64,000 nt of DNA, from contig SEHB01000001.1 of the NCBI GenBank assembly GCA_004143945.1, positions 558,001-622,000 on the forward strand, written 5' to 3'. The notes under the pieces are model-generated. The model had not been told where the DNA came from. It searched no databases and saw nothing but the letters and a program-made list of their open reading frames with translations. The DNA comes from Lysobacteraceae bacterium (lineage in GTDB: Bacteria > Pseudomonadota > Gammaproteobacteria > Xanthomonadales > Rhodanobacteraceae). Shown in pieces: positions 25,424 through 58,745 of this stretch. Position numbers and translations under genes: made by a program. Positions within the stretch are counted from its first letter, which is position 1, and the number at the start of each line of letters is the position of its first letter.

Positions 25424-28171
25424 GTGTCCCGACCCCCTGCCCCGCGGCTGGCCTGCCTGCTCGCCATCGCCATCACGACCGGCCCCGCGATGGCGGCCAC
25501 CTGTACCTGGAACGCCCCTTCCGGCGACTGGAGTGCGATCGCGAACTGGAACGGCTGCGCCGACGCGCCCGGGCCCTCGACGCGCACGCCCGGCCCCGCG
25601 GACATCGCGCTCGTCACGAGCGGCGCTGCCAGCTTCGACATGGATGCAACGGTGGCGGAACTGGAGATCGGCAGCGGCGCGTCGCTGACGCTGGTCGGCG
25701 GCGGCGTGCGCACGCTCACGGTCGCGACCGCCTTGCGCCTCGCCGGCGGCACCTTGTCCACGACCGGCAACTCGTCCTATCCGTTCCTGCGCGTGATCCT
25801 CGAAGACGGTGGCAGCGGCCAGGTGCTCGCGACGAGCACGCTGTCGAATACCGTCGAGCTCGAGAATCGGGGTGACCTGCAGCTGTCGTCGAATTCCGGC
25901 ACTGCGCTGAACATCCGCGATCTCAGCCGGCTCATCAACGTGGGCGGGTCGAGCTTCGCGATCGGCGGCGGTGATGCACGCGTGCATCTCGACGGCCCGG
26001 TGCCGCTCGGTGTCCACGCGGGAGCGATCCTGCACACGAGCGGAAACGTCTACATCGGCAAGGGCATCGTCGCCCCGGGTGCGCCGCGCATCGAGAGCGC
26101 GGGCGTGATCGAGCATGTCGGCCCGGGAACGCTGACCCTGAGCGGCCTCGCCAGCGGCGCGGGCAACGCCGCCACGCTGCAGGTCGAAGGCATCCTCTCG
26201 GTCGCTGCGGGCACGCTCGCCTGCGACCAGGCCGCCGATACCTGCCGACTGCAGAGCGGCAGCAGCGGACTCGAGCCCCTGCACGTGCAGCTCGCGAATG
26301 GCACGCTCGATTTCGGCGCGCCATCCGCGAGCGGACTCAGCATCAACGAGGGCGGCCAGCTGAGCGGCACCGGTACGATCAACGGCGGCATGAACCTGCG
26401 CGGGCGGCTCGTGCCCGGCGCCGATGCCGGTACCCCCTATGGCACGATCGCCATCAGTGGCGAGTTGATCGTGAATACCTCCGGTCGCGTCGAGATCGAT
26501 CTCGGTGGCGGCACGCCGGGCACCCACGACCAGGTCGACGTCGGCGGCGCGCTCGGCGTCGGCGGCGCCGGCGCGGTCGACGGCAGGGGTACGCTGCAGC
26601 TGCGATTCGCCGGCTTCCAGCCCGCATTCGGCGTGCCCGTCACGATCGCCACGTTCGGCAGCGTAGCGGCCGAAAGCGCGTGGTACCGCATCCACGACAA
26701 CAGTCCGCTGCACTTCGCGGCGCGCTTCGATGCGGGCGCCTTGCTGGTCTTCCCGGCCCCGCTGCTCACGATCGACGCGATCGGCGTGACCGAGGGCAAC
26801 AGCGGCACCACCACCGCGGCGATGACGCTGCGCCTGTCGCAACCATCCGCGCACACCGTGAGCGGCGAGCTGCGCATCCATGACGGCACCGCTTCGAGCG
26901 GGCCGCCGCCGACCGGCGACTTCCTGTTCACGGACGGCCTCCCGTTCGAATTCCCGCCGGGCACGACCGAGCTGCAGAAATCCGTCGTCGTGCATGGCGA
27001 TACGATCGTCGAAGGTGACGAAGCATTCAGTACCGAGATCCGGCGCAACAAGCTCGTCAACGCGGCGCTCGCGAATGACGTCCCGGGCAGCCCGCGCTCG
27101 GACGCGACGATCCTGACCGACGACCTGCCGGCGGACACGCGCTTCGTGCTCGCGGGCAAGGACGTGTCCGGCAACCAGGTCCACCGCTACACGAGTACCG
27201 GCACGTTCATCGACGCGTGGGGACCGAGCGTCGGGAATTTCCAGAACTACGTGACCACCGGCATGTGCTTTTCACCCGCAGGCAACCTCCTCGCGACGCG
27301 CTTCGGGAACCCGGACATGACCTACTACAGCGCCGGCGGCGCGATCCTCGACGACGGGTTCGCGCGCCCGCCGGGCACCGGCTCCTACAACCTGCCCGAG
27401 TCATGCGTATTCGACCGCAGCGGCAATGTCTACATCGGCCAGGCCGGCGCGTCGGGTTCGAGCGACGACGCGGTCGCCCTCATGAAATTCGACCGGCATG
27501 GCAATGCGCTCGACCGCTACGTGATCCCGACGGGTCCGCGTGGTACGGACTGGATCGAGCTGGCGGGCGACCAGTGCACGCTCTACTACACGTCGGAAGA
27601 CACGACCGTACGTCGCTACAACCTCTGCACGCGCACGGCGATGCCGGATTTCGCGATCGACCTGACGCCGCCGTACTGTTACGCGCTGCGCCTGCGCCCG
27701 AACAGCGAACTCATGGTCGCGTGCCAGGACGCCGTGCACCGGCTCAGCCCGCAGGGCGTGAACCTGCAGACCTACACGCGCCAGGCCATCGGCGAACTCG
27801 ATGCGGGGGGATTGTTCGCCCTGAACCTCGATCCCGACGACGCCTCGTTCTGGACTGCGGGCGTGCACAGCGGGCAGGTCTACCGCGTCGACATCGAGAG
27901 CGGCAGCGTGCTCGCGAGCTTCGATACCGGGAGCGGCGGCGTGTCGGGCCTGGCCGTCTACGACGAGCTCGGTGACGGGCGCCTCTTCGCCGACGGTTTC
28001 GACCCGTCTCCGACGCCGGCACCGGTGGTCGCAACGGGCCCGAGCAGCCACCTGTTCAAGGAACATTCGCGCTGCGAGCGACAGTTCGCGCCGCGCAAGG
28101 CGACGATGCCGCACTACGTGCCGCACGACGTCGCGTTGATCATCATGCTGGCGAGCGATTGCGAAGACTGA
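25424..28171 (+). CDS. Secreted repeat/Calx-beta/propeller protein with internal LFADGFD motif
   Basis: The 915-residue protein starts at a GTG behind AGGAGCG and has a signal peptide (cleavage after AMA, residue ~25). Residues 26-440 are Gly/Thr/Ser-rich short beta repeats, like a parallel beta-helix or passenger domain. Residues ~445-560 resemble a Calx-beta domain (IDAIGVTEGNSGTTTA). Residues ~565-850 look like NHL/SMP-30 propeller blades. The LFADGFD motif sits at residues 854-860. A 55-residue Pro/His/Arg tail follows and ends in SDCED, unlike the other motif proteins, where the motif is at the end. The substrate or role is not recognised. Confidence 0.85.
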   Translation: MSRPPAPRLACLLAIAITTGPAMAATCTWNAPSGDWSAIANWNGCADAPGPSTRTPGPADIALVTSGAASFDMDATVAELEIGSGASLTLVGGGVRTLTVATALRLAGGTLSTTGNSSYPFLRVILEDGGSGQVLATSTLSNTVELENRGDLQLSSNSGTALNIRDLSRLINVGGSSFAIGGGDARVHLDGPVPLGVHAGAILHTSGNVYIGKGIVAPGAPRIESAGVIEHVGPGTLTLSGLASGAGNAATLQVEGILSVAAGTLACDQAADTCRLQSGSSGLEPLHVQLANGTLDFGAPSASGLSINEGGQLSGTGTINGGMNLRGRLVPGADAGTPYGTIAISGELIVNTSGRVEIDLGGGTPGTHDQVDVGGALGVGGAGAVDGRGTLQLRFAGFQPAFGVPVTIATFGSVAAESAWYRIHDNSPLHFAARFDAGALLVFPAPLLTIDAIGVTEGNSGTTTAAMTLRLSQPSAHTVSGELRIHDGTASSGPPPTGDFLFTDGLPFEFPPGTTELQKSVVVHGDTIVEGDEAFSTEIRRNKLVNAALANDVPGSPRSDATILTDDLPADTRFVLAGKDVSGNQVHRYTSTGTFIDAWGPSVGNFQNYVTTGMCFSPAGNLLATRFGNPDMTYYSAGGAILDDGFARPPGTGSYNLPESCVFDRSGNVYIGQAGASGSSDDAVALMKFDRHGNALDRYVIPTGPRGTDWIELAGDQCTLYYTSEDTTVRRYNLCTRTAMPDFAIDLTPPYCYALRLRPNSELMVACQDAVHRLSPQGVNLQTYTRQAIGELDAGGLFALNLDPDDASFWTAGVHSGQVYRVDIESGSVLASFDTGSGGVSGLAVYDELGDGRLFADGFDPSPTPAPVVATGPSSHLFKEHSRCERQFAPRKATMPHYVPHDVALIIMLASDCED

Positions 28172-28202
28172 GGACACGCGCGAAGAAAGGCCGGAGGGTC
28201 GT

Positions 28203-29687
28203 TCAGTCCGGCGCGAGGTCCTCGCCGGCACCCGCACCGGCCAGCAGGTCCGGCGGCAGCTGCTTGCGCACGGGCGCGCCCATCTCGGCGAGGCTCTGCA
28301 CCTGCAGCAGCACGCTGCCCTTGCCGCCTTCGGTCAGTCTGCGCAGCGCAGCCGCCTGCGCGCGCTGCGCCTTGTCGAGCTGGCCGCCGATCGTGACGAG
28401 TTCGTCGACGAGCGACGCGAAGTTGTCGTGCAGCAGCGCCGCGCGACGCGCGATCTCCATCGCATTGACGTTGCGGCGCTCGATCCGCCACAGGTGCGCG
28501 ACCGTGCGCAGCGTCGCGAGCAGCGTGCTCGGACTCACCAGCGAGATGTTGCGTGCGAGCGCGTGCGCGTACAGGCGATCGTCCGCGCGCACCGCCTCGA
28601 CGAACGCCGCCTCGACCGGTATGAACAGCAGCACGAAGTCGAGCGTGCGCAGGCCCTCGATCTCGCGATAGTTCTTGCCCGACAGCTGGTCGACGTGCCG
28701 GCGCAGCGAGGCGACGTGCTCGGCCAGCGCGCCCGCGCGCGCGCCGTCGTCGACCGCCGCGCAATAGCGTTCGTAAGCGACCAGCGAGACCTTCGAATCG
28801 ACCACGATGTCCTTCTCGTCGGGCAGGTGCACGATCACGTCGGGACGCTGGCGACCACCTTCGGAATCACTGAAGCTCGCCTGCGTCGTGTACTCGCGCC
28901 CCGACTGCAAGCCGGAGGCTTCGAGCACGCGCTCGAGCACGAGCTCGCCCCAGGCGCCCTGCGAGCGCGTGTCGCCGCGCAGCGCGCGCGTGAGGTTGAT
29001 CGCATCTTCGCTGATGCGCTGGTTGAGCTGCTTGAGCGTCTGGATCTCCTGCGCGAGCATGCCGCGTTCACGCTGTTCGCTCGCATGCGTCTGGGTGACC
29101 GATTCGCGGAACTCCTTGAGCTGCAGCTTGAGCGGATCGAGCAGGCCGCCGAGTTGCTGCGAACTCTGTTCGCGGAAGCGCTCGGCCTTGTCTTCGAGGA
29201 TGCGGTTGGCGAGATTCTGGAATGCCTCGCGCAGGCGGTGCTCGGCCTGCTCGAGCAGCTGCAGCTTCTCGGCCGCCGCCTGCGCCTGTGCGGCCGCGCC
29301 GGCTTCGAGCGCGGCATGGCGACCGGTGACGTCGACCAGCCGCTGCTGCGCTTCGTCACGCACGCGGCGCGTGTCGGCCAGTTCCTGCGCAAGTCGCTGC
29401 GCTTCGGCGCCGTGCGCGGCGGCCTGTTCCGACCGGCGCCGCAACGCCTGTTCGAGCTCGGTCGACTCGCGTTCGGCGCGCGCATGCCGGTCCGCGAGTT
29501 CGTCCGCGCGCGCGTCGGCCGCGACCCGCTGCGCCGCGAGCGCCGCGATCTCGCCGTCGCGGCTCGCGCAGCCTGCCGCATGCGCGAGCGCGATCCATCG
29601 CTGCGCGAAAAGGTAGACGAGGATCGCACCGGCCAGCAGGCCGGCTGCGGACGCGAGGACGAGCAGGAGTTCCGGGGCGAGGTTCAT
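28203..29687 (-). CDS. rmuC: DNA recombination protein RmuC
   Basis: The 494-residue protein begins with a membrane anchor ([20 protein letters not shown]). A long Ala/Arg/Glu coiled coil (residues ~45-200) follows, then the RmuC nuclease-like core with [35 protein letters not shown] and FIPVEAAF. RmuC proteins are restriction-endonuclease-fold factors that limit DNA inversions. The open frame extends 84 codons upstream, but the ATG at 29687 gives the standard N-terminus. It converges with the upstream secreted-protein gene and is divergent from mtnB. Confidence 0.94.
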
Positions 29688-29822
29688 GCGGTTCCGATGC
29701 GGCAGTCGATTGCAGGCGGGTCGGTGCCGGGATTGTGGCAGCCGCGGGTCTCGATTGCCGCGACGGTGCGGGGATCGGAGACGCGGCCTCGCGCGTGGAC
29801 GCATCCGCGCAAAGCCACTCCG

Positions 29823-29861
29823 GTATAGTAATCGCCCAGGCGTCGCTCGATCCGACGGAGG
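29823..29861 (+). promoter_or_regulatory. mtnB: Putative mtn operon promoter (-10) and Shine-Dalgarno
   Basis: TATAGT at 29823-29828 differs at one position from the sigma-70 -10 box, and GGAGG at 29857-29861 is a strong ribosome site. No clear -35 is visible. Five bases after the GGAGG is an in-frame ATC (29867) and not an ATG, GTG or TTG. This determines the choice of mtnB start. Confidence 0.45.
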
Positions 29862-29866
29862 CTCCC

Positions 29867-30514
29867 ATCCACACCGAATTCGCCGACCGCGTGACGCTGG
29901 AATCGTGCGCGCGCCAGATCGCCGAGGCTGGTCGCGCACTCGGCGCGCTCGGCTGGACTCCGGCGACCAGCAGCAACTTCTCGATGCGCCTCGACGCCTC
30001 GCATGCAGCGGTCACGATCTCCGGCCGCGACAAGGGCCGGCTCGGCCCCGACGACATCATGGTGGTCGACCTCGAGGGGCGCGCAGTCGGCACCCGTGCG
30101 CAGCCTTCGGCCGAGACCGCGCTGCACGTCCAGGCCTATCGCCGGTTCCCGGGCGCGGGAGCGGTGCTGCACACGCATTCGCGCGCGCAGTCGGTCGCCT
30201 CGCGGCTGTTCGCGGCGCGCGGGGTCGTGCGCTTCGAAGGCTGGGAGCTGCAGAAGGCGATCGCGGGATACACCACGCACGAAAGCGTGCTGGAGTTGCC
30301 GGTGTTCCCGAATACCCAGCGCATGCAGGAACTGGTCGAACGCGTCGACGCATGGCTCGATGGCGGCAAGCCGCTGCACGGCTACTTGATCGACGGCCAT
30401 GGCATCTACACATGGGGCAAGGACATGCCGGAAACCCGCCGGCACCTAGAGGCATTCGAGTTCCTGCTCGATTGCGAACTCGACCTGCTGCGACTCAAGG
30501 GAGCCCTCGCATGA
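29867..30514 (+). CDS. mtnB: Methylthioribulose-1-phosphate dehydratase MtnB
   Basis: This class II aldolase-fold Zn enzyme dehydrates 5-methylthioribulose-1-phosphate in the methionine salvage pathway. It shows [11 protein letters not shown] near the N-terminus, SGRDKGRL, the Zn-ligand pair in [10 protein letters not shown] and the third His in [10 protein letters not shown]. The start is unusual. GGAGG (29857-29861) points to an ATC at 29867, which gives about the N-terminal length expected of xanthomonad homologues. The alternatives are GTG 29795 (upstream of the putative -10) and GTG 29891 (no ribosome site). First gene of the operon; it overlaps mtnD as ATGA. Confidence 0.92.
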
Positions 30515-31517: not shown

Positions 31518-31584
31518 TGCCCTCGCCGCGTATTGCGCTGCGACGCGCGCGCGACGAACTCCGCCCTGCCACAAGGACAGCTGC

Positions 31585-32268: not shown

Positions 32269-32275
32269 GGACACG

Positions 32276-36262: not shown

Positions 36263-36312
36263 CGGCGTCCCATGGCAATGCGCGCCCGGGCGACGCGCCC
36301 GGATGCGTGGAG

Positions 36313-38919: not shown

Positions 38920-41256
38920 TCAGTCGAAACCGTTGGTGAAGATCGCGTCTCCCGAGATCACGAAGTCCCAGATGCCGCGTCCGTAGGTCGCGAAGCGCGC
39001 GATGCCGGCGGCGCCTTCCTCGACGACATCGACGTCCCAGTACACCTGGTCGGGACCGCCGAGGCCGCTGATGTCGACCCAGGTGCCGGCGGCGCGGTCG
39101 TAGTGGAACGGTCCGACCTCGGTCGCCGCGAACAGGTGCTCGCCATCCGGGGAGATCGCGAGCCGGAACACCAGGGTATTCGGCAGTCCATCCGCCATCG
39201 CGGTGAATGCATCGCCGTCATCGGTCGAAACGAATACGGCCGGGTTCGAATAGCCCGCGCCGGCGACGTACACGGTTCCGGGCCGTGCCGGATCGGACAG
39301 GATCGTGTTGCCGTAGAAGTAGTGGTTTTCCGGCAGGCCCGACGCCGTGCCGATCCAGCCGCTGCCGCCGTCGCGGAAGAACTCGCGGTCCGAGGTGATC
39401 GCGTATCGGCGCGCGGCGTCGTGCGCGGAATATGCGAGCGCGGTGACCGCGCTGCCGAAGTCGAACCCCTCCTGGGTCGCGCCGATCACGCCACCCGACA
39501 GCGCGAGCCGGATCACGTGGTGGCCGCCCCCGGCCATGCTGCCGCCTGCGAGGATCGCACTCTGCGGGGCAAGCGGATCGGCGACGATCGGCGGCATCCA
39601 GAGCGTGCCGCCGAGGCCGTTGTTGCCGAAATCCCAGAAGCGCAGCCCGCCCTGCCCGCCGACCGAGGTCGCCGTATCGACCATCGCGAAGCCCGGATAG
39701 ACCATCCAGACGCTGCCGCCGCCATCGGTCGAGTCGAGATGCCCGTAGTCGCCGCTGATCGTCTGCACGAAGTCGTCGATGCCGCCGCCGGGCGCGAGCG
39801 CCTTCTGGTAGCCCTGATCCTGCGCGCCCGCAAGCACCACGCGCGCACCGCCAGCCTGCGTGTAGGTGGAGTAATACTGCGATACGTGCAGGCGATCGAG
39901 CGACAGGTTGCGCACGCTCGCGAGCGCATCGGTCGATTCGTACAGGCCGCCATCAGTGGAGACGAACACGCGTTCGACATCGGCGCCATCGACCCAGACG
40001 TCGACGTCGGGAATGTCCGCGTGCAGCTTGAATTCCGGATTGCCGTAGTACTCGGCCCAGTCGTTGACGGCGGTCCAGCTGGCCGCGCCGTCGATCGAGC
40101 GATACAGGTTCACGCCGCCGGCGTAGACCAGCGCCGGATCGCGCGTGGAGGACTCGGTCGAATCGGGGCCGAACAGCCCGGTCGGCACCGCGCTGCGCGC
40201 CTGCCAGTTCATGCCACCGTCGAGCGAGCGGAAGACATCGGTCTGCGAACCGTTCGCACGCGAGCGGAACGCGTACAGGAATACCTGCCCACCCTCGACG
40301 CCGCCGCTGAGCGCAATGCGGTCGCCCGCGCCGACCGCGGGCGCGAACGGCACCGTCGCGACCGGCACCAGCGCATCCGTGCCCGCGACGATGCGGTTCA
40401 GCGCGCCGTCGATGAGGACATAGAGTTCGCTGGACCCGTAGCGAGGCGAGAACAGCGCGACGCGGTCGCGTTCGCCGACGAAGCCGAGCGACGCGAAGCT
40501 CGCGCCGCGGTCGTGCGATGCGAACAGGTGGGTGCGCCACGCGGCCGGCGCGGTGAAGTCGTAGTGCACGCGCGCGAGGTAGACGTCGTCGGCGGCCGCA
40601 TCGCGCACGGCCATGCCCATCGTGTACCACGGGTTCGCGAATCCGTCGCCGGTCGCCGCGGTGAAGCTGGTTCCGCCGTTGTCGCTGCGATACACGCCCG
40701 TCGGCGAGTCGCTCGCGACCAGCAGGCGCTCGCTCGGGCCGTCGACGAGTCGCTCGAGGAATCCATCCGACACGAAACTCGCGCTGTCGTTGGGACTGTT
40801 CCAGGCCAGCGTCGCGCGGTCGGCACGCCACACGTTTCCACCTTGTGACAGTGCGGTGATGCGATCATTCGCGGCATCGTAGATCGCGCCGGTCATGCGG
40901 CCGGCCTGGTTGCTGCTGCCGCGCTCGCGCCAGAGCCCATCGACCGCCCGCGTGTCCACGCGATCAAGGGTCTTCGCACCCGCGGCGATCGCGGCTTCAC
41001 GGCGTGCCTGCACCGATTCGATGCGCTGCGCGCGCCACGCGGCATCCTGCGCGCGCCAGTCGAGGCCGGGCGCGTGGCGATGCAGCGATTCGATCCAGGC
41101 CTCGCGACGTTGCCTGAAATCGGCATCGCGTTCTCCGGGGCCGCCGTCGGTCGGCTGCGGGAGGACCGCGGACGGGCGCGGCCACGCCGTCCATGCGGTC
41201 GCGATCGCGAGCGCGACCACGACCGTCCCACCCAACCATGCAGGCTTGTACATCAT
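38920..41256 (-). CDS. Secreted BNR/sialidase-like beta-propeller protein ending in IFTNGFD
   Basis: The 778-residue protein has an N-terminal signal or anchor segment (residues ~5-25). A charged linker follows, then many BNR/Asp-box-like blades (for example YRSIDGAASWTAV, FRSLDGGMNWQAR, FVSTDGGLYESTD), as in VPS10/sialidase propellers. No sialidase active-site set is recognised. The last seven residues are IFTNGFD, the motif shared with other secreted proteins here. I chose ATG 41256 behind GGGGGGAG; the longer open frame is a shadow. Its role is probably binding or structural. Confidence 0.86.
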   Translation of the reverse strand: MMYKPAWLGGTVVVALAIATAWTAWPRPSAVLPQPTDGGPGERDADFRQRREAWIESLHRHAPGLDWRAQDAAWRAQRIESVQARREAAIAAGAKTLDRVDTRAVDGLWRERGSSNQAGRMTGAIYDAANDRITALSQGGNVWRADRATLAWNSPNDSASFVSDGFLERLVDGPSERLLVASDSPTGVYRSDNGGTSFTAATGDGFANPWYTMGMAVRDAAADDVYLARVHYDFTAPAAWRTHLFASHDRGASFASLGFVGERDRVALFSPRYGSSELYVLIDGALNRIVAGTDALVPVATVPFAPAVGAGDRIALSGGVEGGQVFLYAFRSRANGSQTDVFRSLDGGMNWQARSAVPTGLFGPDSTESSTRDPALVYAGGVNLYRSIDGAASWTAVNDWAEYYGNPEFKLHADIPDVDVWVDGADVERVFVSTDGGLYESTDALASVRNLSLDRLHVSQYYSTYTQAGGARVVLAGAQDQGYQKALAPGGGIDDFVQTISGDYGHLDSTDGGGSVWMVYPGFAMVDTATSVGGQGGLRFWDFGNNGLGGTLWMPPIVADPLAPQSAILAGGSMAGGGHHVIRLALSGGVIGATQEGFDFGSAVTALAYSAHDAARRYAITSDREFFRDGGSGWIGTASGLPENHYFYGNTILSDPARPGTVYVAGAGYSNPAVFVSTDDGDAFTAMADGLPNTLVFRLAISPDGEHLFAATEVGPFHYDRAAGTWVDISGLGGPDQVYWDVDVVEEGAAGIARFATYGRGIWDFVISGDAIFTNGFD

Positions 41257-41391: not shown

Positions 41392-41679
41392 ATGAATGCC
41401 GTCCCCGCCCGCACCAGCGCCCTCGCGATCGTCAGTCTCGTCGCCGGCATCCTCGCGTGGACCGCGTTGCCCTTCATCGGCGCGATCGTCGCGGTGATCT
41501 GCGGCCATCTGGCGCGCGGCGAGATCCGTACCGCGATGCACGGCACGATCGAAGGCGACGGCATGGCAGTGGCCGGGCTCGTGCTCGGCTGGCTGCAACT
41601 GGTGCTGATCGTCGCGGGCTTTTTCGTGGTGTTCGCATTCCTCGGCGGGATCGCGTTCCTCGCGAACGTATTCGGCTGA
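41392..41679 (+). CDS. DUF4190-type small membrane protein
   Basis: This 95-residue protein has two transmembrane helices separated by the conserved loop [11 protein letters not shown]. The first helix is [20 protein letters not shown] and the second ends [14 protein letters not shown]. This is the layout of DUF4190 proteins of unknown function. The ATG at 41392 is preceded by TCCTGGAC. It stands alone between the divergent propeller gene and pyrD. The open frame upstream of the ATG has no support. Confidence 0.82.
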
Positions 41680-43939: not shown

Positions 43940-45757
43940 ATGTCCGCAGCCAATGCGCAAGCCGCCTTCATCGCCTCGCGACGACGCCTGTTCGGCGGCC
44001 TGCTCGCGAGCGCGGGACTCGCCGATCTCGACCCCCGCCTCGCGCGCCGACGCCCGGGTCGCACCGGCCTGCAGGACTTCGAACTGCCACAGAGCCCGTC
44101 GGCGCTGACGTATCCGCCGCCCGCAGTGCGCTGGCTCACGCGCGCGACGCACGGCTACACGCAGCCCGACCTCGCCGCGTTCAACGCGCTCGGCGCCTCC
44201 GACGACGCGCGCTGGACTGCCTGGGTCGACCAGCAGCTAAATCCGTCATCGATCGTCGATTCCGGTTGCGACGCGCGCATCGCCGCGGCGGGTTTCACCA
44301 CGCTCGCGAAAACACTGCCGCAGCTCTGGGCCGACCACCGTTCGGTCACGAACAACTATTTCCTGCGCATGCTGCCGGTGTCGGAAACCGAATGCGCGAC
44401 GCTGATCCGGCAGACCTACAGCAAGCGCCAGCTGTACGAGACCATGGTCGGCTTCTGGCACGACCATTTCAGCGTCTTCGGCTGGGACTACGACGCCGGG
44501 CCGGTGTTCCCGCACTACGACCGCGACGTGATCCGTCCCAACGCGCTCGGCAATTTCCGCGCGATGCTCGAAGCGGTCGCGAAGTCGACCACGATGATGT
44601 ACTACCTCGACCTCTACGCGTCGACGAACCAGGGGCCGAACGAAAACTACGCGCGCGAACTGCTCGAACTCCACACGCTCGGCGTGGAGAACTACGCGGG
44701 CGTGTTGTTGCCGGACGATCCCTCGCTGCCGATCGGGACCAGCGGCGATGGCCAGCCCGTGCGCCTGAAGTACGTCGACAACGACGTCTACGAAGCCGCG
44801 CGCGCGCTGACCGGCTGGACCGTGAAGAACGGGCACTGGGAATACCCGGCCGACAACGACGGCACCTACGTGTACCGGCTCGACTGGCACGACCGCTTCA
44901 ACAAGTATTTCCTCAACCGCTATTTCCCGCAGAGCCAGACCGACAACGGCGCCGACGGGCGCAAGGTGTTCGACATCCTCAGCGCGCATCCGGGCACGGC
45001 GCGCTTCGTCTCGCGCAAGCTGTGCCGGCGCTTCGTCGGCGACAGCCCGGATTCGGCGCTCGTCGACGAGGTGGCGCAGCGCTTCATCGACGCGCGCCTC
45101 GACGCGGACCAGATCGCGCAATGCATCGGCATCATCCTCGGGTCGGCGCAATTCAAGGAGAGCTGGGGCACGAAGATGAAGCGGCCTGCGCTGGCCGCGA
45201 CCAGCGCACTGCGCGGACTTTCGGCGGACTTCACGCCGAAGCCCGACAACACCGCGAGCTGGACCACCACGGAGGAGTTCCACTCTCGCGTGCAGGCCAC
45301 CGGCAGCCGCATGTTCTACTGGCCCACGCCGGACGGTTACCCGGACATCGAACGCGCGTGGTCGGGCAGCAGTGCGCTCGGCATGACGTTCCGCATGCTG
45401 GCGCGCATCCCCGAGATGCACGCGACCAACGGGGACAACGCGTCGCCGTTTCTCGCCGACGTGCAGGCGCAGACGCTGGCCGCGTTCCCGGATCCGGCGC
45501 AACGGACGGCCGCGAACATGGTCGGCTACTGGTGCGATCGACTCTACGGCTATCGTCCGGATCCCACGCGCGCGACCGTGGTCGACTTCCTGCGCCAGAA
45601 CGCCGCGGCGAGCGCACCGCTCGACATCGTGACCGACAACGGCAACGACCACACGGGCACGTGGAACATGAACGACCTGTCGCGCCACTACACGATCGCG
45701 CGGTTGCGCACGGCGGTCGCGCTGCTGCTGTGCAGCCCCGAATTCCTGCGCCGCTGA
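43940..45757 (+). CDS. DUF1800 domain protein with Tat-like N-terminus
   Basis: The 605-residue protein has a twin-arginine-like start (SRRRLFGGLLASAGLA) and the DUF1800 pattern of conserved blocks. These include WLTRATHGYTQPDL, MVGFWHDHFSV, NENYARELLELHTLGV, ALTGWT and SRKLCRRFVGD. DUF1800 genes are nearly always paired with a DUF1501 gene, as here (10 bp downstream), and both products are exported. The biochemical function of the pair is unknown. It does not carry the IF-x-DGFD tail. Confidence 0.92.
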   Translation: MSAANAQAAFIASRRRLFGGLLASAGLADLDPRLARRRPGRTGLQDFELPQSPSALTYPPPAVRWLTRATHGYTQPDLAAFNALGASDDARWTAWVDQQLNPSSIVDSGCDARIAAAGFTTLAKTLPQLWADHRSVTNNYFLRMLPVSETECATLIRQTYSKRQLYETMVGFWHDHFSVFGWDYDAGPVFPHYDRDVIRPNALGNFRAMLEAVAKSTTMMYYLDLYASTNQGPNENYARELLELHTLGVENYAGVLLPDDPSLPIGTSGDGQPVRLKYVDNDVYEAARALTGWTVKNGHWEYPADNDGTYVYRLDWHDRFNKYFLNRYFPQSQTDNGADGRKVFDILSAHPGTARFVSRKLCRRFVGDSPDSALVDEVAQRFIDARLDADQIAQCIGIILGSAQFKESWGTKMKRPALAATSALRGLSADFTPKPDNTASWTTTEEFHSRVQATGSRMFYWPTPDGYPDIERAWSGSSALGMTFRMLARIPEMHATNGDNASPFLADVQAQTLAAFPDPAQRTAANMVGYWCDRLYGYRPDPTRATVVDFLRQNAAASAPLDIVTDNGNDHTGTWNMNDLSRHYTIARLRTAVALLLCSPEFLRR

Positions 45758-45767
45758 GGACATCCCG

Positions 45768-47159
45768 ATGACGACGTTCGATCGACGCGTATTCCTCAAA
45801 GGTTGCGGCGCCGCCGCACTCACCGCAGGCGTCGGCAGCCGCGCGATGGCGTGGTTCCCGCCGGGCGACCTGCTACCCGCCGCCGCCACCGAAGACACCC
45901 TCGTGATCGTGTTCCTGCGCGGCGCGATGGACGGACTCAGCCTCGTGCCGCCCTCCGCGAACAGCCCGGATCGCCCGTTCTACGAGCAATATCGCAGCGC
46001 GACGCGCGTGCCGACATCCGGCACCGGCGCGGGCCTCGCACTCACCGGCAATCCCGACTGGCTGCTGCATCCGCGCGCGAGCGCGCTGCGCGACCTCTAT
46101 GCGAGCCAGCACCTCGGCATCGTCGTCGCCGCGGGCCAGGTCCAGCCGAATCCGGTGATCCGCAGCCACTTCGATGCACAGGCGAACCTCGAGTTCGGCG
46201 TCGGCGGCGGCACCGGCAACAGTATCGGCTGGTTCACGCGCCACCTGCTCAGCGGCGGCTTGCCCGGCACGGTGCCGTTGCCTGCGGTGTCGATGGGCGG
46301 CATCACCGCGGCGAGCCTGCTCGGCAGCTCGGATGCGATCACGATGGGCAGCGGCCAGGATTTCCGACTCAACACGTTCCATTGGTCGTGGGGCAACGAC
46401 AACCCGGACGAAGGCCTGGTCGGCGCGATCACGCGCATGGACACCTTGTGGAGCGGCAACACGCGGCTCGAAGTCGCCGGTGCCGAAACGCTGGACTCGC
46501 TCGCGTTGCTGCGCGGCGTCGACTTCGCGGGGTACGCGCCGAGCGGAGGCGCCAATTACGACCTCGCCTACAATGGCGGCTTCGGCGACCAACTGCGCGA
46601 CGTCGCCTGCCTGATCAAGCGCGGGATCGGCTTGCGCGCGGTGACGATCGATCTCGGCAACTGGGACACGCATGTCGGCCAGGGCAATCCGGCGCAGAGC
46701 TGGGACTGGTTCGGCAACCAGGTCGAAAGCCTGTCGGCGGGCCTCGACGCGTTCTATACCGACCTCTCGAGCGATCCCGGCGGCAACCTCATGAACCGCG
46801 TGAGCGTGCTCGTGGTCAGCGAGTTCGGTCGCCGCGCGATCGAGAACGAGGACGGCGGCACCGACCACGGTTATGGCAACGTGATCCTCGCGCTCGGTGG
46901 CAGCGTCAACGGCGGGCAGGTCTACGGCGACTTCCCCGGGCTCGGCGGCGAACAGCTGTACGAAGGCACCGACGTGCGCGTCACCACCGACTACCGCCGG
47001 GTCGTGTCCGAGGCGCTGATCCGTCGCATGGGCAATCCGAACATCTACTACGTATTCCCCGGCTACGGCGGCTACGCGCCACTCGGCATCTTCCAAGGTC
47101 CCGACGTGCCGCCTTCGAACTTCGACGCGATCTTCGCCAACGGATTCGATGCCGCCTGA
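45768..47159 (+). CDS. DUF1501 domain protein with Tat signal, ending in IFANGFDAA
   Basis: The 463-residue protein begins MTTFDRRVFLKGCGAAAL, a clear twin-arginine signal. The sulfatase/alkaline-phosphatase-like DUF1501 fold follows, with VIVFLRGAMDGLSLVPP, LGNWDTHVGQ, VLVVSEFGRRAIENEDGGTDHGYGN and GGQVYGDFPGL. The DH-containing segment resembles metal-binding sites of the alkaline-phosphatase superfamily. It is the partner of the DUF1800 gene in a two-gene operon. The C-terminus carries the IFANGFD motif (residues 455-461) plus two Ala, beyond the normal family end. Confidence 0.93.
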   Translation: MTTFDRRVFLKGCGAAALTAGVGSRAMAWFPPGDLLPAAATEDTLVIVFLRGAMDGLSLVPPSANSPDRPFYEQYRSATRVPTSGTGAGLALTGNPDWLLHPRASALRDLYASQHLGIVVAAGQVQPNPVIRSHFDAQANLEFGVGGGTGNSIGWFTRHLLSGGLPGTVPLPAVSMGGITAASLLGSSDAITMGSGQDFRLNTFHWSWGNDNPDEGLVGAITRMDTLWSGNTRLEVAGAETLDSLALLRGVDFAGYAPSGGANYDLAYNGGFGDQLRDVACLIKRGIGLRAVTIDLGNWDTHVGQGNPAQSWDWFGNQVESLSAGLDAFYTDLSSDPGGNLMNRVSVLVVSEFGRRAIENEDGGTDHGYGNVILALGGSVNGGQVYGDFPGLGGEQLYEGTDVRVTTDYRRVVSEALIRRMGNPNIYYVFPGYGGYAPLGIFQGPDVPPSNFDAIFANGFDAA

Positions 47160-47402
47160 TCCACCGCGAGGTTGTTGCGGTCACGCTGGCATCCGGCTCC
47201 TTCCGCCTGGTCGGCACCGTCGAGGCGTTCAACAGCGTGCGCGCCGGCATCGTCTCGGACTTTCCGCGGAGGTCGCATGCGTACCACGCACCGCGCGGCA
47301 TGCTCGTCGTCGGACGACCCGCCGGGAGCATCGTCAGCCTGTTCACGATGGACCAGGTCTTCGCGGGTGGATTCGAGTCGCCGACACCGACGCGTCGGCT
47401 AG
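47160..47402 (+). pseudogene. Relic of a secreted-protein C-terminus with VFAGGFE motif
   Basis: Frame 2 between the DUF1501 stop and the cyclase gene encodes a protein-like stretch (SGSFRLVGTVEAFNSVRAG, then RPAGSIVSLFTMDQVFAGGFES). It ends in the same motif as its neighbours, but has no start codon or N-terminal domain. Frame 2 then runs on without a stop, whereas the +1 frame stops at the TAG 47400-47402. It looks like the decayed C-terminal end of a gene, perhaps left by a deletion. No homologue is recognised. Confidence 0.4.
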
Positions 47403-50800: not shown

Positions 50801-50803
50801 GGT

Positions 50804-52550: not shown

Positions 52551-52570
52551 CGACGAACGGGAATCCCGGC

Positions 52571-53140: not shown

Positions 53141-53141
53141 A

Positions 53142-54314
53142 TCAGAATGCGTTGATCCCGGTGACCTCGCGGCCGACCACGAGCTGGTGCACGGTCTCGG
53201 TGCCCTCGTAGGTGATCACCGACTCGAGGTTCAGCGCATGCCGGATCGGGCTGTGCTCGGTCGTGATGCCGGCGCCGCCGAGGATGTCGCGGCATTCGCG
53301 CGCGATGTCGATCGCCATGCGGCAGTTGTTCCACTTCGCGAGCGAGACCTGGGTCGGCTGCATCGTGCCCGCGTCCTTCAGGCGGCCGAGCTGCAGCGAG
53401 AGCAGCTGCGCGAGCGTGATCCGCCGCGCCATGTCGGCGAGCTTGACCTGCACCGCCTGGTTCGCCGCGAGCGGGCGCTGGAACAGGATGCGCTCCTTCG
53501 CGTACGCGGTGGTTTCGGTGAAGCAGGCGATCGCGGCGCCGATCGGACCCCAGGTGATGCCGTAGCGCGCCTGGGTCAGGCAGCCGAGCGGACCCTTGAG
53601 GCCCTTCACGTTCGGAAGGCGGTTCGCTTCGGGCACGCGCACGTTGTCGAAGAACAGCGCACTCGTGACCGACGCGCGCAGGCTCATCTTCTTGTGGATT
53701 TCCTGCGCGGTGAACCCGGGCATGCCCTTCTCGACGATGAAGCCCTGGATGCCGTCGTCGGTCTGCGCCCAGACGATCGCGATGTGCGCGAGGTTGCCGT
53801 TGGTGATCCACATCTTGGCGCCGTTGAGGATCCAGTCGGCGCCTTCCTTCTTCGCGTTGGTCTTCATGTTGGCCGGATCCGAGCCGCCGTGCGGCTCGGT
53901 CAGGCCGAAGCAGCCGATCACCTTGCCGGCCGCCATCTCGGGCAGCCAGCGCCGGCGCTGCTCTTCGCTGCCGTACGCGTAGATCGGATACATGCACAGC
54001 GACGACTGCACCGAGGCGAAGCTGCGGATACCCGAATCCCCGCGCTCGAGTTCCTGGCAGACCAGGCCGTAGCTGACGCCGTTCATGCCCGCGCAGCCGT
54101 ATTCGGTCGGCAGCGAAGATCCGAGCAGCCCGAGGTCGGCCATTTCCGGGATCAGCTCGGTCGGGAAGCGTGCCTTGTCGAAGCAGTCGCCGATGATCGG
54201 CAGCACGCGCTCGTCGGTGAAGCGCGCGACCGTGTCCTGCACCATGCGCTCCTCGTCGGAGAGCAGTGCGCGCACGTCGTAGAGATCGATCGGGTTCAGC
54301 GGGGTGGCAGCCAT
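53142..54314 (-). CDS. gcdH: Glutaryl-CoA dehydrogenase
   Basis: This 390-residue flavoprotein is of the acyl-CoA dehydrogenase family. It shows the features of the glutaryl-CoA branch: GLLGSSLPTEYGCAGMN, RSFASVQSSLCMYPI, FGLTEPHGGSDP for FAD binding, and the catalytic Glu in ITYEGTETVHQLVVGREVTG. It oxidises and decarboxylates glutaryl-CoA to crotonyl-CoA in lysine and tryptophan degradation. ATG 54314 was chosen over 54344 because the downstream N-terminus is conserved. Monocistronic. Confidence 0.93.
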   Translation of the reverse strand: MAATPLNPIDLYDVRALLSDEERMVQDTVARFTDERVLPIIGDCFDKARFPTELIPEMADLGLLGSSLPTEYGCAGMNGVSYGLVCQELERGDSGIRSFASVQSSLCMYPIYAYGSEEQRRRWLPEMAAGKVIGCFGLTEPHGGSDPANMKTNAKKEGADWILNGAKMWITNGNLAHIAIVWAQTDDGIQGFIVEKGMPGFTAQEIHKKMSLRASVTSALFFDNVRVPEANRLPNVKGLKGPLGCLTQARYGITWGPIGAAIACFTETTAYAKERILFQRPLAANQAVQVKLADMARRITLAQLLSLQLGRLKDAGTMQPTQVSLAKWNNCRMAIDIARECRDILGGAGITTEHSPIRHALNLESVITYEGTETVHQLVVGREVTGINAF

Positions 54315-54426
54315 GGAATGCGGTTCCGTGTCCGGGGCGGGCAAAGCAGGCTATTGTAGCGGCACCGCGTCCGCCCGGCCACGCGGATCGCGCCGACGCC
54401 AGTGGCCGATCCTGTCAAGACCCCGC

Positions 54427-55239
54427 ATGCGCGTACCTGTCCTCACCTACCATTCCAACAACATCTCCGGCAACGACTACGCCCGCAACGACCACGTCGC
54501 GCTGGCCGAGGACTTGCGCCTGATCCACCGTGCCGGGCTGCGCATCGTGCCGCTCGCGCGCGTGGTCGAGGTCCTGCTCGGGGAAGCAGCCGGGTCGACG
54601 CTCGACGGCGCGGTCGCGCTGAGCTTCGACGACGGATCCTGGTTCGACTGGCACGACATCGAGCACCCGAGCTGCGGCCTGCAGCGAGGCTTCGCGGGCA
54701 TCCTGCGCGATTTCGCGGCCGAAACCGGCAGCGCGGTGCACGCGACGAGCTTCGTGATCGTGTCGCCGGAGGCCCGCACGGAGCTCGATCGCACCTGCCT
54801 CGTCGGGCGCGGCTGGTGGGGCGACGACTGGTGGGGCGCGGCGCAGCGCGAGGGCGTGCTCTCGATCGAGAGCCACAGCTGGGACCACAACCACCACACG
54901 CTGGCCGTCACCGCGCAGCGCGAGCAACGCAAGGGCACCTTCCGCAGCATCGACAATCATGTCGACGCGGACGCGCAGATCCGCCAGGCCGCGGACTGGC
55001 TCGACGCGCTGCTCGCGCCGCACCAGTCGAGCCTTTTCGCCTACCCCTACGGCGAAAGCAATGACTACCTCGTGCGCGAGTACCTGCCGCGCTTCATGCA
55101 CCAGCACCGGCTGCGCGCAGCCTTCGATACCGAGGCGGGTCCGGTACACGCATCGAGCGGACGCTGGCAGTTGCCGCGGTACGTGTGCGGGCAACATTGG
55201 ACCGCGCCCGAGGATCTCGCGCGACTGCTGGACGAATAG
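54427..55239 (+). CDS. Polysaccharide deacetylase-family protein (CE4 fold)
   Basis: The 270-residue protein without signal peptide has the NodB/CE4 motifs: PVLTYHS at the N-terminus, ALSFDDGS (catalytic and metal Asp), SHSWDHNHH as the metal His motif, and FAYPYGESND. It likely removes acetyl groups from a glycan or modifies a precursor in the cytoplasm, since no export signal is seen. ATG 54427 gives the conserved start. The substrate is unknown. Confidence 0.9.
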   Translation: MRVPVLTYHSNNISGNDYARNDHVALAEDLRLIHRAGLRIVPLARVVEVLLGEAAGSTLDGAVALSFDDGSWFDWHDIEHPSCGLQRGFAGILRDFAAETGSAVHATSFVIVSPEARTELDRTCLVGRGWWGDDWWGAAQREGVLSIESHSWDHNHHTLAVTAQREQRKGTFRSIDNHVDADAQIRQAADWLDALLAPHQSSLFAYPYGESNDYLVREYLPRFMHQHRLRAAFDTEAGPVHASSGRWQLPRYVCGQHWTAPEDLARLLDE

Positions 55240-55362
55240 CGCGACCGACCTCGATCTGCAGGCTGGAGGCGCGCAGCGCCGTTGGCATCGGGCACCCGCG
55301 CGAACAGCGCCGGCCGACCCTTGGTCGCCCGGCCTGCGCGCGCGATCAATGGATTCGCCGGC

Positions 55363-55869
55363 TCAGAACGCGCCGATCGAGTGCGCCTTCTCGACCAGCG
55401 CACGCCGACGCGCTGGATCCAGCGGCTTGTGCCAGCGCACGATCAACTGATCGTGGTGCGTCGGCTCGAACCCCGCCTGCATGTCGACCTCGTACGCACG
55501 CGCGTCGCCGCAGTGGCCGAAGTAGGCATCGCAGCGGTCGGCGTAGCGCTCGAACGCATAGCGCAAGGCATGAAGCAACAGGCCTCCGGCACTGCGGATC
55601 GCGTCGCGGTCCGCATCGGGCAGGCCGCGGATCGCATCCCCGTCGGTGCATCCGCCACCGACGAGCATGATGTCCGCGTGCGGAAGCAGGTGCAGGTAGG
55701 ACAGCGGCGTGAAGCGCGCATCCTCGCCGCGATGGAACACGCCGACGTGGTGCGGATAGTCCGGGATCGGATCGCCGAACTTGCGCCGGAACAGTTCGCC
55801 GAAGAACGGACGGGCGTCATCGACTTCGGTGATGACGATCAGCGGCTCGATGACCGATGGAAGTTCCAA
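55363..55869 (-). CDS. Conserved hypothetical protein with uncertain start
   Basis: The coding part is credible, with FGELFRRKFGDPIPDYPHH, YLHLLPHADIMLVGGGCTDG and DAYFGHCGDARAYEVDMQAGF, and a C-terminus with HDQLIVRWHK. It suggests an acyltransferase-like or nucleotide-binding small enzyme, but I cannot place it. The only ATG in frame (55977) would overlap the nucleotidase gene by 50 bp. The nearest alternative is a TTG at 55869. It is the third gene in a row after the subtilase and nucleotidase genes. Confidence 0.68.
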   Translation of the reverse strand: MELPSVIEPLIVITEVDDARPFFGELFRRKFGDPIPDYPHHVGVFHRGEDARFTPLSYLHLLPHADIMLVGGGCTDGDAIRGLPDADRDAIRSAGGLLLHALRYAFERYADRCDAYFGHCGDARAYEVDMQAGFEPTHHDQLIVRWHKPLDPARRRALVEKAHSIGAF

Positions 55870-55927
55870 GGCGCGGGGTTCCGCTGAGGGGAACGCGAGA
55901 GCATACAGCGTGTACCGCGCGGGGCCG

Positions 55928-56833
55928 TCATCCTCGGAGCCGGTCGATCCGGCGCGGCACGTGCCCGGTCGCGACATGCAGTCGAGCGGACTCGACGTTC
56001 GCCGCGGAATCGTCGAAGAAGATGTCGGCGCCGAATGCTTCGAGAAACGGCCCCTTGGAACGGCCGCCGAGGAACAGCGCCTCGTCGATGCGCACGCCCC
56101 ACTCGCGCAGGGTCAGGATCACGCGCTTGTGCGCGGGCGCCGAGCGCGCGGTCACGAGCGCGGTGCGGATCGGCGAATCCTCACTCGGGAAGGCGTCCTG
56201 CAGGCGATGCAGCGCATCGAGGAAGCCGCGGAACGGGCCGCCCGAAAGCGGCTCGAGCGCGCGTTCGGTCTCGTGGCGATGGAACGCGTCGATGCCGCCC
56301 TGCTCCGACACGCGCTCGGACTCGTCGCCGAACAGCACCGCGTCGCCGTCGAACGCGATGCGCAACTGGTCGGATTGCCGCTGCGGCGCCTTCGAAGGCA
56401 GGATCGTCGCGGCCGCGATGCCCGCCGCGAGCGCCTGCGCGACGCTGTCCGGATTGGCCGAGAGGAACAGGTCGGCGTCGAACGCGTGCACGTACGGAAA
56501 CGTCGGCGCACCGCGCGTGAACGCGGCGCGCGCGATGCCGAGGCCGTAGTGTTCGATCGAGTTGAAGATGCGCAGGCCGGTATCGGCCGAGTTGCGCGAG
56601 AGCAGGATCACCTCGACGCGCGGCGCTTCCGGCGGCGCCGCGTTGAGCTTGAGCAGCTTCTGCACGAGCGGGAATGCGATGCCCGGCGCGAGCAGCTCGT
56701 CCTCGCGCTCGATCTGGTAGCGCGCGAACGCATCCACGCCCTCGCGTTCGAACAGATCGTGGCTCTCGCCGAGGTCGAACAGCGCACGCGAGGAGATCGC
56801 GACGACGAGCGCGTCGCGCGCGCCCGTCGTCAT
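55928..56833 (-). CDS. Cytosolic-type 5'-nucleotidase
   Basis: This protein of about 301 residues matches the 5'-nucleotidase family related to the cN-I enzymes. It shows LVVAISSRALFDL at the start, EVILLSRNSADTGLRIFNSIEHYGL, FDADLFLSANPDSV, and the FDGDAVLFGDESER motif of a HAD-type active site. It ends with FGADIFFDDSAANVESA. It hydrolyses nucleoside monophosphates. I prefer ATG 56833 to 56893, which overlaps the subtilase gene. It lies 16 bp after that gene. Confidence 0.92.
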   Translation of the reverse strand: MTTGARDALVVAISSRALFDLGESHDLFEREGVDAFARYQIEREDELLAPGIAFPLVQKLLKLNAAPPEAPRVEVILLSRNSADTGLRIFNSIEHYGLGIARAAFTRGAPTFPYVHAFDADLFLSANPDSVAQALAAGIAAATILPSKAPQRQSDQLRIAFDGDAVLFGDESERVSEQGGIDAFHRHETERALEPLSGGPFRGFLDALHRLQDAFPSEDSPIRTALVTARSAPAHKRVILTLREWGVRIDEALFLGGRSKGPFLEAFGADIFFDDSAANVESARLHVATGHVPRRIDRLRG

Positions 56834-56849
56834 CGATGCCGGGCGCGCT

Positions 56850-58745
56850 TCAGCGTCCCGGGACTCCATCGAAACCGTCCTCGAAGATCGCATCGTCGAT
56901 CATCACCTCGAGGACCGCACTGGCACCGGCCTCGTTGTCGCCGAGGTCGGTCTGCAGGACACCGACATCGAGCATCTGCTCGTAGCTTCCCTCGGCCGGC
57001 GCACTCACGGCGACCGTCACGGTGCACCCGGTGCCGGCCGGGATCTCGGCCCCCGTCTCCAGCCTGAAGCCCTGGAAGTCCGGGGACACGACGACGACGC
57101 CGGATGGACAGGTCGTTGAGGCCTGCACCGGTTCGACCACGCGCAACAGGCCCGGCAGGCCGTTGGTCAGGCTGGAGGTCAGCACCGCGGGCGAGCCGCC
57201 GGCGTTGCCGAGCGTCAGCACCAGTTCGCTCGGTTCATTCACCATCACGCTCGACGGCACGAACGCGACCTCGAGCGACACCGGCGACCCCTGCGCCGCT
57301 TGCGCCGCTGCGTAGGCATCGATGCGGCCGTATCCCGCGACGTAGTTCGGCCACTCGCCGACCGGGATTCCGCCGCAGGACTGGGACACGGTGATCGGCA
57401 CGGCCGTGTCGCGCAGGATCTGCGCGACCTGCGCGGGATTGCCCTTGAGCGCCGGATTCACCGACATCAGCAAGGCCGCCGCGCCCGCGACGTGCGGTCC
57501 GGCCATGCTGGTGCCGCTCATCGAGCCGTATCCGCCGCCGGGAATGCTCGAGCGGATGCTCGAACCCGGAGCCGAAACGTCGGGGCGGATCAGGCCTGAA
57601 CCCGAAACCGGGCCGCGACTGGAGAAGCTCGACATCGCGTCGCTGGAGGTCGTCGAACCGATCACGAAGCTGGCGTCGTAGAGCGCGGGCGGCGTGAGGA
57701 TCGAACTGCAACCCGACCCGTCGTTGCCGGCGGACGCGACGAACAGGATGCCGGCATCGACGAGGTTGTCGACCGCGGTCTCGAGGATGTCGGCCGGCGT
57801 GCAGCCTTCGCTCGCGGGGCAACCCCAGGAATTGTTGATCACGTCTGGCGCGAGGTCGGGGTTCGGATTCTGGCCTGCGAGGTCGGTCGGCGCGAGGAAG
57901 AACTCCATGCACTCGATGTATCGCGCGGGTGTGCCATCGCCGGAATTCATGTTGCGGCATCCGATCCACTTCGCGCCGGGCGCCACGCCGATTTCGTTGG
58001 CGCCGCCGTCGCTGCCGGCGAACGTACCCGCAGTATGCGTGCCGTGGCCGTGGTCGTCGCACGGCACCGGAGAATCGTTTCCGCAAGGATTCCCGCTCGA
58101 ATCGTGGATCGAGTCACGCCAGTTGTAGTCGTGCGTCGCGGTCGTCCCGTCCCAGCCGCGATAATGGTTGATCAGCGCCGGGTGATCCCAGTCGTAGCCG
58201 GTGTCCTGGCCCGCGATCACCACACCCTGGCCCGTGAACCCTTCCGCCCAGACCTCGGGTGCGCGGATCTTGTTGACACCCCACTCGATCGCCTCGACTT
58301 CGCTCGGCAGCGGTCCGAGCTGCTGCGTCGGCAGTTGCAGCGAGTACTCGGGATTGGCCGCGACGCGCGAGACGTCGCCGCGGGCGGCGAGTTCGGTGAG
58401 GTCCTGCGGCGAAAGCCGCGCCCAGATCACGTTGCTGATCCAGAACGAGCGATACTCGATGCCGCGCGCTGCGAGCCAGGCGCGCACACCCGCCTGCTGC
58501 TCGTCCGCTCGCGCGCGCAGTGCATCGACGAGTGCGCGCCTGCGCGCGCGGTAGTCGGCTTCAGGGGCGAGCAGCGCAAGCGTCGGTCGCGCCTGGTCCG
58601 CCATCACGATCAGCGCTTCCGCATGCCCGCTCGCGCGCGCCTGCTCGAGCAAGCTGGCCTCGATGTCCGCGGCGAGCGCGCTGCTGCAGGCAAGGGTGAG
58701 CGCCGCGAGCGGCAACGCGCGCAGGACAGGATTGGAACGATGCAT
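56850..58745 (-). CDS. Secreted S8 subtilase ending in IFEDGFDGVPGR
   Basis: The 631-residue protease has a signal peptide (cleavage after ALA) and an I9-like propeptide (residues ~27-140). The subtilisin domain has the triad Asp181 (AGQDTGYDWDHP), His234 (DDHGHGTHTAGT) and Ser413 (SGTSMAGPHVAGA). The oxyanion Asn is in VINNSWG. Residues ~490-610 form an Ig-like/DUF11-type module (VEPVQASTTC). The C-terminus carries IFEDGFD at residues 620-626. It likely acts outside the cell on proteins. It is followed by the 5'-nucleotidase gene in the same direction. Confidence 0.95.
   Translation of the reverse strand: MHRSNPVLRALPLAALTLACSSALAADIEASLLEQARASGHAEALIVMADQARPTLALLAPEADYRARRRALVDALRARADEQQAGVRAWLAARGIEYRSFWISNVIWARLSPQDLTELAARGDVSRVAANPEYSLQLPTQQLGPLPSEVEAIEWGVNKIRAPEVWAEGFTGQGVVIAGQDTGYDWDHPALINHYRGWDGTTATHDYNWRDSIHDSSGNPCGNDSPVPCDDHGHGTHTAGTFAGSDGGANEIGVAPGAKWIGCRNMNSGDGTPARYIECMEFFLAPTDLAGQNPNPDLAPDVINNSWGCPASEGCTPADILETAVDNLVDAGILFVASAGNDGSGCSSILTPPALYDASFVIGSTTSSDAMSSFSSRGPVSGSGLIRPDVSAPGSSIRSSIPGGGYGSMSGTSMAGPHVAGAAALLMSVNPALKGNPAQVAQILRDTAVPITVSQSCGGIPVGEWPNYVAGYGRIDAYAAAQAAQGSPVSLEVAFVPSSVMVNEPSELVLTLGNAGGSPAVLTSSLTNGLPGLLRVVEPVQASTTCPSGVVVVSPDFQGFRLETGAEIPAGTGCTVTVAVSAPAEGSYEQMLDVGVLQTDLGDNEAGASAVLEVMIDDAIFEDGFDGVPGR

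Follow-up and report, generated by a model that had tools for sequence, protein, structure and literature searches.

Why should four exported proteins that have no domain in common carry the same short motif? The question is raised by a 64,000-nucleotide stretch (the window) of contig SEHB01000001.1 (assembly GCA_004143945.1), which belongs to a genome of 3.67 Mb (the source genome). A sequence-only reading had pointed out four motif sites in the window, hereafter referred to as tags, and all four were found in frame and exactly where that reading had placed them. The answer that we favor, with a probability of roughly 0.6, is that the tag is a linear address for one of the two type II secretion systems (T2SSs) of the source genome, which we have named T2SS-A and T2SS-B.

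The four tags are LFADGFD (27983-28003, plus strand), IFTNGFD (38923-38943, minus strand), IFANGFD (47130-47150, plus strand), and IFEDGFD (56868-56888, minus strand). LFADGFD lies 55 residues ahead of the stop of the open reading frame (ORF) at 25424-28171 on the plus strand, which encodes an exported protein of 915 residues with a weak Calx-beta match, below the Pfam cut-off. IFTNGFD forms the final seven residues of an exported protein that weakly matches Sortilin-Vps10 (BNR-type), also below the Pfam cut-off (38920-41256, minus strand); the start of this gene was set at 41256 and not at 41598 because a signal-peptide-like start is present at 41256. IFANGFD is followed by two more residues (AA) and the stop in a DUF1501 protein (45768-47159, plus strand) with a Tat-type start, DRRVFLKG, judged by eye. 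IFEDGFD is located five residues ahead of the stop of an exported subtilase, assigned to Peptidase_S8 and DUF7933 by Pfam (56850-58745, minus strand). Several claims made from the letters alone were borne out by these data: in three of the four proteins no more than five residues follow the motif (0, two, and five), Pfam revealed no domain common to the four, and export signals are present in all of them, three being signal-peptide-like starts found with a crude predictor and the fourth the Tat-type start of the DUF1501 protein.

The source genome was searched with a DNA pattern for [IVL]Fx[DN]GF[DE], and the same pattern reversed served as control. There were 125 pattern matches, compared to 1 for the control, and from amino acid composition alone approximately 0.35 matches would be expected in a proteome of 1.1 million residues, with 0.007 of them close to C-termini, these sizes being assumed. 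We read 103 records in context, corresponding to 102 distinct sites, as L013 and L014 represent one site. A C-terminal tag was defined as one no more than 35 residues from the stop; this applied to 86 of the 102 sites, with 74 no more than 6 residues away and 22 forming the last residues of the protein. Position -2, which is outside the search pattern, was occupied by D in 77 of the 86 C-terminal tags, the residue after the first F was A in 44 of them, and A, P, or G were most frequent behind the tag. Apart from the D at -2, there was little conservation outside the tag, and no conserved cysteine was present in its profile. The tag consensus is thus the nine-residue sequence D-x-[IVL]-F-x-[DN]-G-F-[DE]. 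Among the four window tags, LFADGFD is the weakest, with G instead of D at -2. No variant tags were seen in the stretches of the source genome examined, which were mostly chosen by the strict motif. As had been stated from the sequence alone, neither a membrane helix nor a basic tail is part of the tag, and only 0 to 6 residues follow in 74 of the 86 C-terminal tags.

The C-terminal placement proposed in the sequence-only reading therefore holds for most copies and fails for the remainder. The 16 sites that are more than 35 residues from the stop have D or E at -2 in 13 cases. Several of them are located between apparent domains, and in L062 (a DUF1800 protein) and L029 the tag is found just behind the signal peptide, 37 and 41 residues past the chosen start, respectively. 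Two of the 16, L063 and L080, look like chance matches.

The proteins that carry the tag look exported. In a comparison that was based on long stretches and a home-made gene and signal-peptide caller, with genes bearing a non-C-terminal tag dropped, a signal-peptide-like ATG start was found in 42 of 45 tagged versus 51 of 218 untagged genes. When any start codon was allowed, these numbers were 44 of 45 and 98 of 218. Equal use in cytoplasmic proteins had been raised as the observation that would speak against a portable tag; the comparison came out in favor of the tag. Two DUF1501 carriers, the window protein and L057, have Tat-type starts, and a lipobox-like signal is present in few carriers. 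As judged mainly with the same home-made predictor, tagged genes thus mostly appear to encode proteins exported to the periplasm via Sec or Tat, as T2SS substrates are. A family scan of 101 carriers, which included the likely chance matches L063 and L080 and accepted NCBIfam E values up to 0.1, revealed varied families, with beta-helix, FG-GAP, subtilase, Kelch, GSDH, DUF1800, M14, and M64 peptidase families among the matches listed (the 25 commonest families in each of two listings).

Match counts in 298 genomes of the order were bimodal: at least 30 matches were present in 55 genomes and none in 128, and the highest count was 189 pattern matches in one genome. Genomes with at least 12 matches were considered tag-rich (65 of 298). 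When 84,980 species were scanned with a stricter pattern that included a stop codon, 29 stretches were retrieved, of which 21 are named within Lysobacterales, including Dokdonella, Tahibacter, Pseudofulvimonas, Pseudolysobacter, and Marinicella. Cultured species among them are Dokdonella immobilis, Dokdonella fugitiva, Tahibacter soli, and Pseudofulvimonas gallinarii. Another two belong to Wenzhouxiangella (Chromatiales according to NCBI), and six come from bins with no name beyond Gammaproteobacteria or Proteobacteria. To the extent that the record names show it, the tag is almost confined to one order. We found no mention of the four exact motif strings in the papers searched, the papers listed on sorting signals, T2SS, and Xanthomonas yielded no such tag, and the listed matches to looser strings concern other matters.

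Considering this distribution, which gene accompanies the tag? Exosortase, GspD, DUF1501, and rhombosortase were searched for in 71 genomes (35 tag-rich and 36 tag-poor) hand-picked from the 298. Some GspD exceeded the family cut-off in 67 of the 71, tag-rich or tag-poor, and the link is therefore not to merely having a T2SS, so that the T2SS in general was ruled out as partner. The GspD matches seemed to be of two kinds, A and B. Searching all 298 genomes with GspD-A gave E values of 1.5e-142 or lower in 83 genomes, most of the remaining ones being at about 1e-14 to 1e-35; 27 genomes with a middling match (25 of family f2 and two of family f1, with 0 or 1 tag match each) and six with fragments fell between these. 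In a first count, in which fragments were taken as present and the 27 middling genomes as absent, the T2SS-A secretin was found in 62 of 65 tag-rich genomes (57 full and 5 fragments) versus 27 of 233 others; with fragments excluded, these numbers were 57 of 65 and 26 of 233. T2SS-A thus fits, with exceptions, the co-occurring gene present only where the motif is abundant that the sequence-only reading had proposed to look for. The idea of a portable tag used by a lineage-specific secretion or attachment system is likewise supported, in that the tag is genome-wide, its carriers mostly look exported, and it is almost confined to one order and goes with one machine.

Two adjustments were made after the first count had been seen. 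Two genomes (G047 and G114) were added that have no GspD-A but a strong GspG and that belong to lineages having T2SS-A, which suggests that the misses are assembly gaps. Three genomes (G178, G205, and G285) were removed because their gspD and gspG are within 8 kb of each other, a different arrangement as compared by eye: among 13 T2SS-A-positive genomes with both genes on one contig, the two were more than 290 kb apart in nine and 23 kb apart in G069. A strong GspG is not proof of T2SS-A, as it was also found among the genomes with a middling GspD match and in a few further tag-poor ones. After the adjustments, T2SS-A was present in 64 of 65 tag-rich genomes versus 24 of 233 others, and 84 of 89 genera were concordant (81 of 89 before). 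A within-family permutation of the adjusted data resulted in a p value of about 5e-6, which is the floor of the test, with descent not fully corrected for. In family f1 alone, T2SS-A was found in 4 of 4 tag-rich genera versus 0 of 19 others (1 of 19 before adjustment), and in family f2 alone in 2 of 2 versus 0 of 27. Since the GspD-A and GspE-A trees group mostly by family, T2SS-A probably goes back a long way in the order and was lost several times, the tag being lost alongside.

The DUF1501 carrier permitted a view of a single protein across the order, as orthologs of the window protein from several families have tag-like ends. We examined 30 DUF1501 loci, 27 of which are from T2SS-A genomes. 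Tag-like ends were observed in 23 of these 27, 8 of them strict and 15 variant by eye, including IFKNGFQ, IFASGFD, and IYAAGFE, and the linker ahead of the tag varies. The two closest orthologs from genomes lacking T2SS-A (G031 and G117) have no tag.

A number of observations weigh against a link between the tag and T2SS-A. At least four genomes, all of family f8, are tagged, and T2SS-A was not detected in them: G058 (15 matches; all 5 of the sites read being C-terminal, although the ORF of one is very short), G133 (8 matches; 4 of 5 C-terminal), G088 (8 matches; 3 of 5), and G041 (3 matches, among them two real tags). The DUF1501 protein of G058 also has a tag-like end, IFNGGFE, and the tag is missing from 4 of the 27 DUF1501 loci of T2SS-A genomes. 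Conversely, 18 genomes with T2SS-A have fewer than five matches, namely, 15 of genus g32 (family f10), G059, G073, and G130. The single matches in G059 and G073 look like chance and that in G130 is doubtful; the DUF1501 protein of G059 ends in the tag-like IYAAGFE, and variant spelling may explain part of the low counts in T2SS-A genomes. Furthermore, GspD and GspE of the three tag-free genomes that were set apart (G178, G205, and G285) fall inside the T2SS-A tree. A search up to 1.5 kb from gspD-A revealed no canonical tag at 30 loci, nor was one present in 20 wider regions. The losses are small in number: family labels, used in place of a species tree, point to perhaps four to six that were independent. 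The support consists of co-occurrence, and another gene lost together with T2SS-A may be the true reader.

In the source genome, gspD-A (C3:86221-88284) is located beside gspC, gspE, and gspF, followed by ftsEX. T2SS-A comprises gspC-D-E, with gspF and ftsEX behind in this genome, and a separate gspG...N cluster; the strong GspG lies at a separate place, on contig C28. Components C, D, F, J, K, M, and N were recognized via Pfam and G via TIGR01710, and E was read in frame; the core parts of the system were thus found, and H, I, and L of this genome have no separate confirmation. In 20 regions of other genomes, tblastn detected E in 19 and F in 13. The C-terminal part of GspC matches PDZ models below the Pfam cut-off, as well as models of PDZ-bearing proteases, and is kept across the aligned tag-bearing lineages. 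T2SS-B is encoded by a cluster on contig C13 with a gene order that we take to be Xps-like. At G000:C3:81026-91024 (L136, L137), gspCDEF directly adjoin ftsEX, as they do in 9 of the 20 regions elsewhere. ftsEX was rejected as a mark of T2SS-A, as it is present in only these 9 regions, and 7 of the 12 tag-rich regions yielded neither it nor gspF. In the source genome, the divergent neighbor of gspC-A is a tagged gene. A founder tagged gene beside its machine was considered for 12 low-count genomes and discarded, most single matches in family f8 being antisense or chance, with the two real tags in G041 as an exception. In genus g32, three of the five genomes read have one or two C-terminal tags.

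How might T2SS-A make use of the tag? It would be the natural reader because its substrates are periplasmic proteins already exported via Sec or Tat, because it co-occurs with the tag, and because it coexists with another T2SS in the cell. The occurrence of Sec-type and Tat-type signals on the carriers fits a machine that takes folded periplasmic proteins. We infer that T2SS-A moves the carriers and reads the tag. The carriers would first be exported to the periplasm, mostly with Sec-type and in few cases with Tat-type signals, and the tag would then route them to T2SS-A; being short, it would let this system distinguish its own cargo in a cell that also holds T2SS-B. A periplasmic part of T2SS-A, either the PDZ/HR region of GspC or the N-domains of GspD, may bind the tag as an extended peptide. 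A free carboxyl end would not be needed, because the tag often has residues after it and can be internal or follow the signal peptide; a PDZ reading of a free C-terminus would not be the whole story, since residues follow in 64 of the 86 C-terminal tags. The broader proposition, that the tag is a general, portable linear T2SS signal of one order that sorts cargo between two coexisting T2SSs, we consider only slightly better than an even bet.

GlyGly-CTERM, PEP-CTERM, and MYXO-CTERM include a membrane helix and a basic tail and are associated with a membrane protease (rhombosortase, exosortase, and myxosortase, respectively); PEP-CTERM was reportedly discovered through a phylogenetic profile. 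The C-terminal domain of type IX secretion is folded, comprises about 80 residues, and belongs to another phylum and another machine. Like the three CTERM signals (PMC3237569, PMC1569441, PMC11980579), the tag is a many-to-one C-terminal mark on unrelated exported proteins, including some of the same carrier families; unlike them, it lacks a helix and a tail and varies in position. The invariant cysteine of MYXO-CTERM is not in the tag profile, and the myxosortase gene was not searched for. With the type IX domain, named as a contrast in PMC12802150, the tag would share the role of a common C-terminal address for one secretion machine, yet no folded C-terminal domain with a library model was found in the tag tails tested. 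T2SS substrates are described as sharing no linear sequence (PMC7949064). According to the same article, loop 3 of PelI/Pel3, an exposed stretch of nine residues, is a secretion signal of the Out T2SS and interacts with GspC and GspD. The tag resembles this loop in that nine residues would decide T2SS recruitment; it differs in that the loop is found in one enzyme family, requires other loops as well, and is not shared in sequence (PMC7949064). The PDZ domain of EpsC is required for VesB secretion, according to PMC12369372; there, unlike in the tag, an Ig fold carries the information, for a single cargo. In a study of lipoprotein sorting and GspN (PMC12802150), a short motif is needed for the T2SS-dependent surface localization of lipoproteins, and T2SS-A likewise has GspN; that motif is situated beside the lipobox and is not sufficient, whereas most tags are C-terminal and lipobox-like signals are rare among the carriers.

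The main rival explanation, which we hold to be unlikely, is that the carriers leave via T2SS-A and that the tag then holds them at the surface via a receptor or another protein, a role likened to that of GlyGly-CTERM or MYXO-CTERM elsewhere. It is favored by NCBIfam matches to choice-of-anchor families, namely, choice_anch_Q in 15 of 101 carriers (11 of 50 plus 4 of 51) and choice_anch_B in 3 (3 of the 51 in one batch), and by L006, which aligns with MXAN_5453, a family described as anchored via MYXO-CTERM (E value 3.4e-55, under the model cut-off), as far as position 407 of the 544 in the profile and then terminates in the tag. However, the tag has no membrane helix or basic tail, lipobox-like signals are confined to few carriers, and it would be odd for an anchor to lie just behind a signal peptide, as two copies do, or between domains, as several do; moreover, the rarity of tags in genomes where another T2SS remains would be unexplained, unless all anchored proteins use T2SS-A. 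We find it still harder to believe that the tag is read by an unknown sorting or processing enzyme that was lost together with T2SS-A, the latter being a fellow traveler. The small number of losses and the four tagged f8 genomes would agree with such an enzyme, but the known candidates fail: the exosortase model PF09721 had matches in 17 of the 35 tag-rich genomes and in 7 of the 36 tag-poor ones, 6 of these exceeding the cut-off, and none in the source genome, and the rhombosortase model TIGR03902 exceeded its cut-off in 3 of 71 genomes (G178, G048, and G012), none of them among the 35 tag-rich ones. In addition, a place that varies from 0 to 35 residues before the stop to internal and N-terminal is unsuited to a cleavage or transfer signal.

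It is highly improbable, in our view, that the tag is what is left of a truncated domain, or its first strand (the sequence-only reading had offered the start of a truncated domain as an alternative), or a dispersed DNA repeat read in frame. The motif is short, and longer DGFESG...W stretches exist in other bacteria, which could be counted in favor of a remnant. Against this, the 21 bases that encode the motif occur in 81 different versions among the 86 C-terminal tags, and the DNA flanks before and after these tags are 33 and 31 percent alike, versus 32 percent in control stretches from the same genes. The tag is therefore a protein-level feature and not a DNA repeat, nor does it stem from recent DNA copies. 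SG directly after the tag was found in 0 of 103 records, and little is conserved beyond the tag itself. When tag tails alone were searched, no Pfam model was matched in 6 tails and no NCBIfam model in 9 of 10, the match of the tenth lying outside the tag.

If the tag is indeed an address for T2SS-A, it would be a common sequence address of the kind that the T2SS has been thought to lack, and would as such be new. Being shared by about a hundred unrelated carriers and tied to one of two T2SSs, it would make the question of the T2SS signal directly testable on two phenylalanines within nine residues. The tag would also allow the likely secretome of many uncultured Lysobacterales to be listed from sequence and would give a small handle for protein export.

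Some further features of the window and of other genomes complete the picture. The upstream neighbor of the DUF1501 gene encodes a DUF1800 protein (43940-45757, plus strand) with a tag at neither end; at 43940-47159 the tag is thus on the DUF1501 neighbor of a DUF1800 gene, and in L062 (contig C25) it is on the DUF1800 protein itself. The window also holds a fifth, near-matching site (VFAGGFE at 47357), which has 321 further codons behind it and is probably due to chance. A rhomboid-family protease gene at 59382-59846 (minus strand; G000:C17:617382-617846) scored 43 bits against the rhombosortase model, under its cut-off of 84. L063, also on contig C25, is a TIGR03013 XrtA/PEP-CTERM-type glycosyltransferase, yet the PF09721 search of the source genome found no exosortase. 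In L050, L051, and L052, the tag is followed by a C-terminal stretch of 193 residues that is the same in all three proteins. The tag-free genomes G205 and G285 (L169, L170) are of different families, and their T2SS genes pair in the trees, as if a related T2SS had been transferred horizontally. In the likewise tag-free G178 (G178:C47:15001-27000; L171), the T2SS genes are located beside a rhombosortase over the cut-off (131.6 bits), which suggests that this T2SS serves GlyGly-CTERM proteins.

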